Of a DNA stretch of 64,000 bases, positions 47,701 through 59,498 are shown one piece after another. Under the pieces are notes generated by a model that was not told the origin of the DNA, ran no database searches, and worked only from the letters and a program-made list of their open reading frames with translations. The position numbers were made by a program, and so were the translations under genes. Within the stretch, counting starts at the first letter, position 1. Each line of letters begins with the position of its first letter. The stretch spans positions 6,628,030-6,692,029 of the forward strand of contig CAIIXF020000009.1 in NCBI GenBank assembly GCA_903813345.2, read 5' to 3'. This DNA comes from Owenia fusiformis (lineage: Eukaryota > Annelida > Polychaeta > Sabellida > Oweniidae).

Positions 47701-50700
47701 ATTGATATTTTTCCAAATGTTTTAGTCACAAATCAGGAAAATACAACATTTCAACATACCTTCAGAGGTTTTTTAAAGTCTGCACAGCCTTGTTTTTGAA
47801 GTTGATTGATGGTGTCTTGCACAATGTTTTCTCTCCTTATGAACAAGACAAGGCATGGGTTGACTGGATCCACCATTGGCATGAACATACTGCTGATGTT
47901 CCTTCTATGTACTTCATCCATGGCAAACTACAATGTGAAATCAACACATCTATACAATTGGCATAAACATACTGCTGATGTTCCTTCTATGTACTTCATC
48001 CATGGCAAACTACAATGTGAAATCAACACATCCATACAATTGACATAAACATACTGCTGATGTTCCTTATATGTACTTCATCCATGGCAAACTACAATGT
48101 AAAATCAACACATCCATACAATTGGCATAAACGTACTGCTGATGTTCCTTCTATGTACTTCATCCATGGCAAACTACAATGTGAAATCAACACATCCATA
48201 CAATTGGCATAAACATACTGCTGATGTTCCTTCTATGTACTTCATCCATGGCAAACTACAATGTGAAATCAACATATCCATACAATTGGCATGAACATAC
48301 TGCTGATGTTCCTTCTATGTACTTCATCCATGGCAAACTACAATGTGAAATCAACACATCCATACAATTGGCATAAACATACTGCTGATGTTCCTTCTAT
48401 GTACTTCATCCATGGCAAACTACAATGTGAAATCAACACATCCATTCAGTTGGCATAAACATACTGCTGATGTTCCTTCTATGTACTTCATCCATGGCAA
48501 ACTACAATGTGAAATCAACACATCCATACAATTGGCATAAACATACTGCTGATGTTCCTTCTATGTACTTCATCCATGGCAAACTACAATGTGAAATCAA
48601 CACATCCATACAATTGGCATAAACATACTGCTGATGTTCCTTCTATGTACTTCATTCATGGCAAACTACAATGTGAAATCAACACATCCATACAATTGGC
48701 ATGAACATACTGCTAATGTTCCTTCTATGTACTTCATGCATGGTAAACTACAATGTGAAATCAACACATCCATACAATTGGCATAAACATACTGCTGATG
48801 TTCCTTCTATGTACTTCATCCATGGCAAACTACAATGTGAAATCAACACATCCATACAATTGGCATAAACATACTGCTGATGTTCCTTCTATGTACTTCA
48901 TCCATGGCAAACTACAATGTGAATATGTGACATCAACACATCCATACAATAGGCATAAACATATTGCTTATGTTCCTTCTATGTACTTCATCCATGGCAA
49001 ACTACAATGTGAAATCAACACATCCATACAATTGGCATAAACATACTGCTGATGTTCCTTCTATGTACTTCATCCATGGCAAACTACAATGTGAAATCAA
49101 CACATCCATACAATTGGCATGAACATACTGCTGATGTTCCTTCTATGTACTTCGTCCATGGCAAACTACAATGTGAATATGTGACATCAACATATTCATA
49201 CAATTGGCATGAACATACTGCTGATGTTCCTTCTATGTACTTCGTCCATGGCAAACTTCAATGTGAAATCAACACATCCATACAATTGGCATAAACATAT
49301 TGCTGATGTTCCTTCTATGTACTTCGTCCATGGCAAACTACAATGTGAAATCAACACATCCATACAATTGGCATGAACATACTGCTGATGTTCCTTCTAT
49401 GTACTTCATCCATGGCAAACTACAATGTGAAATCAACACATCCATACAATTGGCATAAACATATTGCTGATGTTCCTTCTATGTACTTCATCCATGGCAA
49501 ACTACAATGTGAAATCAACACATCCATACAATTGGCATAAACATACTGCTGATGTTCCTTCTATGTACTTCATCCATGGCAAACTACAATGTGAAATCAA
49601 CACATCCATACAATTGGCATAAACATTCTGCTGATGTTCCTTCTATGTACTTCATCCATGGCAAACTACAATGTGAAATCAACACATCCATACAATTGGC
49701 ATAAACATACTGCTGATGTTCCTTCTATGTACTTCATCCATGGCAAACTACAATGTGAAATCAACACATCCATACAATTGGCATAAACATACTGCTGATG
49801 TTCCTTCTATGTACTTCATCCATGGCAAACTACAATGTGAAATCAACACATCCATACAATTGGCATAAACATACTGCTGATGTTCCTTATATGTACTTCA
49901 TCCATGGCAAACTACAATGTAAAATCAACACATCCATACAATTGGCATAAACATACTGCTGATGTTCCTTCTATGTACTTCATTCATGGCAAACTACAAT
50001 GTGAAATCAACACATCCATACAATTGGCATAAACATACTGCTGATGTTCCTTCTATGTACTTCATCCATGGCAAACTACAATGTGAAATCAACACATCCA
50101 TACAATTGGCATAAACATATTGCTGATGTTCCTTCTATGTACTTCATCCATGGCAAACTACAATGTGAAATCAACACATCCATACAATTGGCATGAACAT
50201 ACTGCTGATGTTCCTTCTATGTACATGTACTTCATCCATGGCAAACTACAATGTGAAATCAACACAACCATACAATTGGCATAAACATACTGCTGATGTT
50301 CCTTCTATGTACTTCATCCATGGCAAACTACAATGTGAAATCAACACATCCATACAATTGGCATAAACATATTGCTGATGTTCCTTCTATGTACTTCATC
50401 CATGGCAAACTACAATGTGAAATCAACACATCCATACAATTGGCATGAACATACTGCTGATGTTCCTTCTATGTACATGTACTTCATCCATGGCAAACTA
50501 CAATGTGAAATCAACACAACCATACAATTGGCATAAACATACTGCTGATGTTCCTTCTATGTACTTCATCCATGGCAAACTACAATGTGAAATCAACACA
50601 TCCATACAATTGGCATGAACATACTGCTGATGTTCCTTCTATGTACTTCGTCCATGGCAAACTACAATGTGAAATCAACACATCCATACAATTGGCATAA

Positions 50701-59498: not shown

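Follow-up and report, generated by a model that had tools for sequence, protein, structure and literature searches.

In clusters of mutually exclusive exons, such as those of Dscam and of muscle myosin, many acceptors lie in one intron and one of them is chosen, each copy being a full exon with its own donor. The human IFI6 gene carries a minisatellite with a unit of 12 bp. In the excerpts available of this and the other papers cited here, downstream repeat units of the IFI6 (6-16) minisatellite are reported to serve as splice donor sites (PMC4526556), and the multiple donor sites are credited to Turri, Cuin and Porter 1995 (cited in PMC2572611). In potato RdRp, a tandem duplication reaching from intron 1 into exon 2 duplicated a 3' splice site together with a stub of the exon (PMC4974935). 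Here, we describe a stretch of 64,000 nucleotides (nt) of the annelid Owenia fusiformis (assembly GCA_903813345.2, contig CAIIXF020000009.1, forward-strand positions 6,628,030 to 6,692,029; the window, below, is this whole stretch), where one intron of a HECT-ligase gene contains 131 acceptors, 130 of them in copies of the intron end and exon start that lead nowhere in frame. We consider it probable that the array is a tolerated minisatellite, the last acceptor of which is favoured through exon definition. The elements on which the argument relies are these, in window coordinates, with repeats called by Tandem Repeats Finder (TRF):

59406 to 59498, minus strand: upstream coding exon, 93 nt, with its donor GT at 59405-59404; placed by sequence and by UBE3A homology on both sides of the junction.
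47875 to 58660: the 82-bp array in the HECT-ligase intron; period 82, 130.8 copies, 95% matches (TRF).
58648, minus strand: first exon-side base at the most distal decoy acceptor; an intron ending at that site would be 757 nt long.
47928 to 58700, minus strand: the 130 upstream (decoy) copies, delimited by TRF and by the acceptor scan; the array ends distally in a partial unit at 58700.
47760 to 47927, minus strand: putative functional exon, 168 nt, in phase 0 at both ends, behind the last acceptor; donor AAG/GTATGT at 47759.
47521 to 47568, minus strand: next exon, 48 nt, preceded by an intron of 191 nt; read from the sequence.

Each unit of the array consists of the 3' end of the intron, with its splice site, and of the first ~55 nt of the HECT-ligase exon. 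A scan for the junction core found acceptors from 58648 down to 47927, spaced by 82 nt in 121 of the 130 intervals and by 88 (four), 90 (four) or 87 nt (one) in the remainder. The acceptor AG is intact in 131 of 131 copies, and the 17 nt ahead of the exon (-17 to -1) read TTGATTTCACATTGTAG in 115 of them. The scan and TRF agree with the first-pass annotation of this DNA, which had counted about 130 copies of a 3' splice site plus exon start. The array is far beyond chance. With head-to-tail units in the range of ~10-100 bp repeated 130.8 times it is a minisatellite, and, like a splice-site minisatellite of the IFI6 kind, it has units that hold a splice site of the host gene. The intron that contains it is 11,478 nt long and reaches its first decoy after 757 nt; the partial unit at 58700 may be either ancestral intron or a truncated copy. 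We discarded two other descriptions of the repeat. A dispersed repeat, transposable element or satellite is disfavoured because the unit was found here alone: in a search of the genome, an exact 46-mer of the unit has 63 matches, all inside the array, and 113 of the 113 matches listed for a protein query are this locus, although diverged DNA copies may exist elsewhere. A coding repeat on either strand is disfavoured because a period of 82 is not divisible by 3 and because the frames that cross the array, in a stop-to-stop listing, are all short and overlapping.

Read in the phase of the gene (phase 0), all 130 upstream copies meet a stop, after a median of 22 codons; 61 decoys give an identical 22-residue reading and the remaining ones are variants. 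The copy at 47927 is the sole one whose frame stays open into the full 168-nt exon. The two corresponding claims made earlier, that only the last unit continues into the full exon and that the others read into a stop, thus hold across the whole array. As none of the 130 upstream copies reaches the functional exon without a stop, the copies are not complete exons and the array is not a cluster of mutually exclusive exons. One might read the unit differently, as a mini-exon of 37 nt followed by an intron of 45 nt (GTATGT...TTGTAG), the mini-exons being spliced through one after the other following serial intron gain. GTATGT does stand in register, 37 nt into the exon stub, in 111 of the 130 decoys, and the potato tandem duplication acquired an intron in this way (PMC4974935). 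But a 37-nt stub and an 82-nt period both shift the frame, and by hand reading of the consensus unit a TGA follows in the next copy. In the in-unit donor, GCA/GTATGT, moreover, the GT is not preceded by the usual AG, unlike in the true donor AAG/GTATGT. We regard serial gain as extremely unlikely.

The exons of 93, 168 and 48 nt, as read from the sequence, are each open in phase 0 and lie between an AG and a GT. Joined by hand, the translated exons around the array align with human UBE3A (query residues 3-132, E 6e-18) on either side of junction 59406/47927; this joined sequence has no Pfam match from the start of the exon to the next HECT exons. A search of the genome for a spliced retrocopy with the 59406/47927 junction gave none at up to 3 mismatches. 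HECT and RCC1 matches flank the array on both sides and lie on the same strand. Five RCC1 matches of the gene, at C9:6712133-6717385 on the minus strand, are upstream of the window and contain no internal stop. With an N-terminal RCC1 part and a C-terminal HECT part at one locus and on the same strand, separated by ~25 kb without annotation, this appears to be a HERC-type HECT E3 ligase gene, which we take to be of the HERC3/4 subfamily. The other elements of the gene in the window are as follows:

38762 to 38938, minus strand: last HECT exon (Pfam HECT), in the same gene; open.
44574 to 44717, minus strand: HECT match with one TAA listed, placed just past the donor AAG/GTAAAA.
59181 to 59387, minus strand: minisatellite of 33 bp x 6.3 (TRF) that starts 18 nt into the array intron and is separate from the array.
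41750 to 42101, minus strand: minisatellite of 23 bp x 15.3 in the same gene (TRF and sequence).

The 23-bp minisatellite begins at +3 of the intron that follows the exon ending at 42104; its units copy the donor flank, with the donor GT lost.

These data bear on whether the array has damaged the gene, i.e. whether it blocks correct splicing so that the ligase is dying or mostly truncated in the sequenced individual. There are 130 equal decoys ahead of the real acceptor, and skipping the 168-nt exon would preserve the frame, yet drop conserved sequence. But the last HECT exon is open, the TAA of the match at 44574-44717 falls after the donor, and the five RCC1 matches are free of stops. Arrays are also found in TRIP12-, HERC2- and KIF4-like genes, and joint loss of all these genes is unlikely. 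A damaged ligase is therefore a very unlikely explanation.

In the account that we favour, a tandem duplication over the intron-exon boundary would have seeded the minisatellite, which would then have expanded by unequal exchange or slippage. The productive mRNA would join 59406 to 47927. Judging from frame and homology, the last acceptor is probably the one used: the open frame and the conserved protein are reached from the last copy alone. Since the local signals are alike in most decoys and in the true site, context must decide between them, and exon definition would provide this context. The exon would be recognised as a unit: of all acceptors that could pair with its own donor, 47927 gives the shortest exon (47927/47760, 168 nt), and each upstream acceptor would lengthen the exon by ~82 nt per copy. 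Splice-junction duplications would thus be tolerated because exon definition favours the closest pair across the exon and one full exon remains intact. The array would then be neutral, tolerated and not selected. Carranza et al. 2022 (PMC9225289) report such a preference. Under exon definition, the sites closest across the exon are preferred; of two equal donors in minigenes, the upstream one is used exclusively; and competing acceptors between a long upstream and a short downstream intron behave as in exon definition. The HERC exon, with at least 757 nt of intron upstream and 191 nt downstream, is of this long/short class. The first-pass annotation had concluded that the gene must choose one acceptor among many or use the array to limit expression. 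This is not supported: exon definition is a passive route by which the last copy could be favoured, and the sequence gives no sign that the array limits expression.

We analysed 24 loci of the same genome: 20 stretches of 10 kb surrounding HECT or RCC1 matches, picked from the match lists regardless of repeats, and four of 9 kb at the four best kinesin matches. At least 8 of these 24 have arrays across a splice junction. We counted 10 such arrays of 2-33 copies, of which 7 lie over an acceptor and 3 over a donor. Array edges were inspected for 16 of the 43 arrays in the 20 loci (those with a promising consensus) and for 2 of 3 in the kinesin loci, and this count is thus a floor. The arrays are:

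L007: acceptor, 102 bp x 5, TRIP12-like gene.
L014: acceptor, 59 bp x 17, HECT gene.
L019, first array (L019a): acceptor, 82 bp x 15, without Pfam or PDB match and coding by frame and position alone.
L019, second array (L019b): acceptor, 141 bp x 2, RCC1.
L023, first array (L023a): acceptor, 122 bp x 18, HERC2-like by PDB, without Pfam match.
L023, second array (L023b): acceptor, 91 bp x 3, ZZ domain.
L028: acceptor, 64 bp x at least 24, running to the edge of the fetched stretch; kinesin gene, with weak matches (Pfam Microtub_bd 0.0018 and Kinesin 0.026, PDB none).
L009: donor, 92 bp x 5, HECT.
L016: donor, 147 bp x 5, HECT.
L022: donor, 114 bp x 33, RCC1.

Two other loci came from genes chosen for their tandem matches:

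L025: acceptor, 159 bp x 18, KIF4-like gene.
L001 (C346:256001-266000): RCC1 gene with three acceptor-spanning repeats, at 1938-2457 (129 bp x 4; L001A), 3556-6615 (113 bp x 27; L001B) and 6873-7205 (messy, 78-112 bp x ~2; L001C).

The full exon is attached to the last copy in acceptor arrays and to the first copy in donor arrays, and both arrangements fit pairing across the exon. Apparently, look-alike sites in several genes have to be ignored by splicing. These arrays do not support the uniqueness suggested by the first-pass annotation, which knew of no described case on this scale: in copy number none of the sampled arrays matches the HERC array, which with 131 copies is the largest seen, but its architecture recurs in these loci and has published relatives in the available text on potato RdRp and IFI6. 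One may go further and imagine that splice-junction minisatellites form a pervasive class not reported before: exons by the hundreds or thousands would lie behind 2 to 130 decoy acceptors or donors, and array length would act as a fast-evolving dial of expression through the yield of correct mRNA. We think this generalisation unlikely to hold. Two further features are recorded on their own account. In the 113-bp array of L001, the unit boundary reads TTGTAG/GTATAT, so that the acceptor abuts donor-like sequence. At L003 4986-9608, a 447-bp x 10 array with 74% matches lies between the HECT-side and RCC1-side parts of the same HERC locus.

Do the decoys retain their signals? Over 11 acceptor arrays, AG is present in 239 of 253 decoys (HERC 130/130, L001A 3/3, L001B 26/26, L007 4/4, L014 3/16, L019a 13/14, L019b 1/1, L023a 17/17, L023b 2/2, L025 17/17, L028 23/23), and over the three donor arrays GT is present in 40 of 40, the fifth L009 copy being otherwise degenerate. 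L001C is outside these totals as its copies are not registrable (AG at 4/5 sites); L023b has AG at 3/5 sites with a looser threshold, two sites being off the 91-bp spacing, and at 3/3 with a stricter one; and L014 has 17 or 15 copies depending on the scan. Such figures must be compared with the background of each array. For this, rows under 80% identity were removed, which kept 126/130 for HERC, 3/4 for L007, 14/16 for L014, 16/17 for L023a, 3/4 for L009, 2/4 for L016 and 31/32 for L022, and all rows in the other five arrays. By site, the splice dinucleotide is invariant in 10 of 12 arrays; in these same arrays, between 21 and 97% of all dinucleotides are likewise invariant. The evidence for conservation of the decoys is hence weak. 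There is likewise no evidence for erosion of decoy signals among the 12 arrays except in L014, the sole eroded array of the set, where CAA replaces CAG in 13 of 17 copies of the 59-bp acceptor array of the HECT gene (L014 4180-5200). In most arrays the use of a decoy would truncate the protein or shift the frame; decoys of L007 (3/4) and L019b (1/1) stay open and in frame.

These results also inform the idea that the array is a rheostat, in which some transcripts would be spliced to decoys, run into a stop and undergo nonsense-mediated decay, so that copy number would tune the amount of ligase. All 130 decoys retain AG and yield a premature stop, they all precede the true acceptor, also in order of transcription, and the classical work of Reed and Maniatis, as reported in the available text of PMC9225289, prefers the acceptor that is closest across the intron. 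On the other hand, similar arrays in several unrelated genes of the sample fit a general mutational process better than control specific to this gene, the decoy signals are neither clearly conserved nor eroded, and the in-frame, open decoys of L007 and L019b show that truncation is not common to all arrays. On balance, we find a rheostat unlikely.

In the 20 HECT/RCC1 loci, which amount to 200,000 bases, 43 merged arrays occupy 21,484 bases, and of the 74 stretches of domain exon, 5 are in contact with an array; these contact tests cover exons with a HECT or RCC1 match. Random placement of whole arrays gives 10.8 expected contacts vs the 5 observed (chance of at least 5: 0.99). A strong enrichment of arrays at exons was considered and is unsupported by the placement tests. 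As contacts are not clearly above chance, a mechanism directed at splice sites is unnecessary. The simplest account is that of a duplication-rich genome, where duplications that break an exon are lost and those that copy one edge and leave a whole exon are retained.

Several observations weigh against a neutral array spliced at its last copy. When founding units are placed instead of whole arrays, the 5 observed contacts compare with 2.0 expected for all periods (P 0.04) and 1.8 for periods of at least 40 (P 0.03), and for periods of at least 70 there are 4 vs 1.6 (P 0.07), so that a mild enrichment of arrays at exons is possible. The UBE3A alignment has a gap of six residues (AMDEVH) that starts one residue past the junction. 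The first seven residues of the exon are thus without homology support, which begins at about the eighth. The in-register GTATGT of the decoys could act as a pseudo-exon donor. Finally, the available text of PMC9225289 reports that, taken over all alternative-acceptor events in human, the 3' splice site lying upstream is preferred; among events of the strict exon-definition class with sites of equal strength, this upstream bias is reduced, with no reversal stated there. The 130 equal sites that are transcribed earlier could therefore see some use. Tolerance of the array together with preference for its last acceptor nevertheless remains, in our judgement, the probable explanation.

How the array grew can be read in part from its units. 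There are 53 unit types among the 130, with a mean divergence from the consensus of 1.7% (2.1% in an ungapped count), and 48 of the 82 sites of the unit never vary. Over -27 to +47, the decoys have a mean identity of 95% to the functional copy, without a trend from one end to the other. The longest runs of identical successive units, of 9 and 7 units, recur at lags of 32 and 25 units, respectively, which suggests expansion by duplication within the array. The same block repeats could be mis-assembly, with copies multiplied in the assembly process. Yet the 53 unit types come in mixed order, units are of 82, 87, 88 and 90 nt, the whole window is without N and thus has no gap across the array, and arrays of other periods exist in the same genome. 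An assembly artefact is very improbable on these grounds; the exact copy number, taken from one assembly, is uncertain.

Some features met along the way concern other elements. In the window itself, 29909-32876 on the plus strand encodes a receptor of the metabotropic-glutamate type (ANF_receptor, NCD3G, 7tm_3), and a second, similar copy of its C-terminal frame lies at 33765-34184. In the genome, 17 HECT-fragment matches of equal score (profile 234-284, in a 161-aa frame) are dispersed on C1-C6, C10-C12 and C512 (e.g. C1:25257117-25257257), as if carried by a mobile element. At C9:37986009-37994334, twelve matches to one early exon of the myosin head (profile ~18-84), ~0.3 to 2 kb apart, lie upstream of further myosin exons and are probably alternative exons.

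It has long been asked how the spliceosome distinguishes a genuine splice site from a decoy of identical sequence, and engineered duplications and annotated pairs of sites have been used to test this. This genome offers natural competitions between 2 to 131 near-equal sites in conserved genes, in which donor and acceptor arrays are mutual controls, and a rule of proximity across the exon could be observed directly in RNA-seq data. Should the decoys prove to be ignored, exon definition would be much more powerful than tests on pairs of sites indicate; should they prove to be used, array length would be a new cause of variation in expression.

Among open-licence papers, we found none that describes arrays this large, acceptor arrays, or a genome in which such arrays are numerous. 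The known systems each share one aspect with the HERC array. Dscam and myosin clusters share the choice among many acceptors, but the copies there are full exons, whereas here they are 130 stubs. DDX3Y/MSY2, which we considered as a parallel, was set aside, as the available text describes a promoter minisatellite instead. A passage about duplicated splice sites in PMC8724738 likewise has no bearing on the question. In IFI6, as in the HERC array, a minisatellite supplies repeated splice sites; yet, in the excerpts available, these are donors that give productive alternatives, with two repeat units mentioned and in one gene, and in HERC they are acceptors. The duplication in potato RdRp likewise spans a boundary and copies an acceptor with its stub, but the published excerpt concerns one duplication by which a new intron was made, whereas the HERC array has 131 copies whose use as introns would shift the frame. 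The same problem is posed in the studies of competition between equal splice sites, i.e. Reed and Maniatis 1986 (per PMC9225289) and Carranza et al. 2022. As far as their available text goes, these used engineered or annotated pairs of sites, with a minigene test on donors, whereas here the competitors are natural arrays of dozens to 130 sites.
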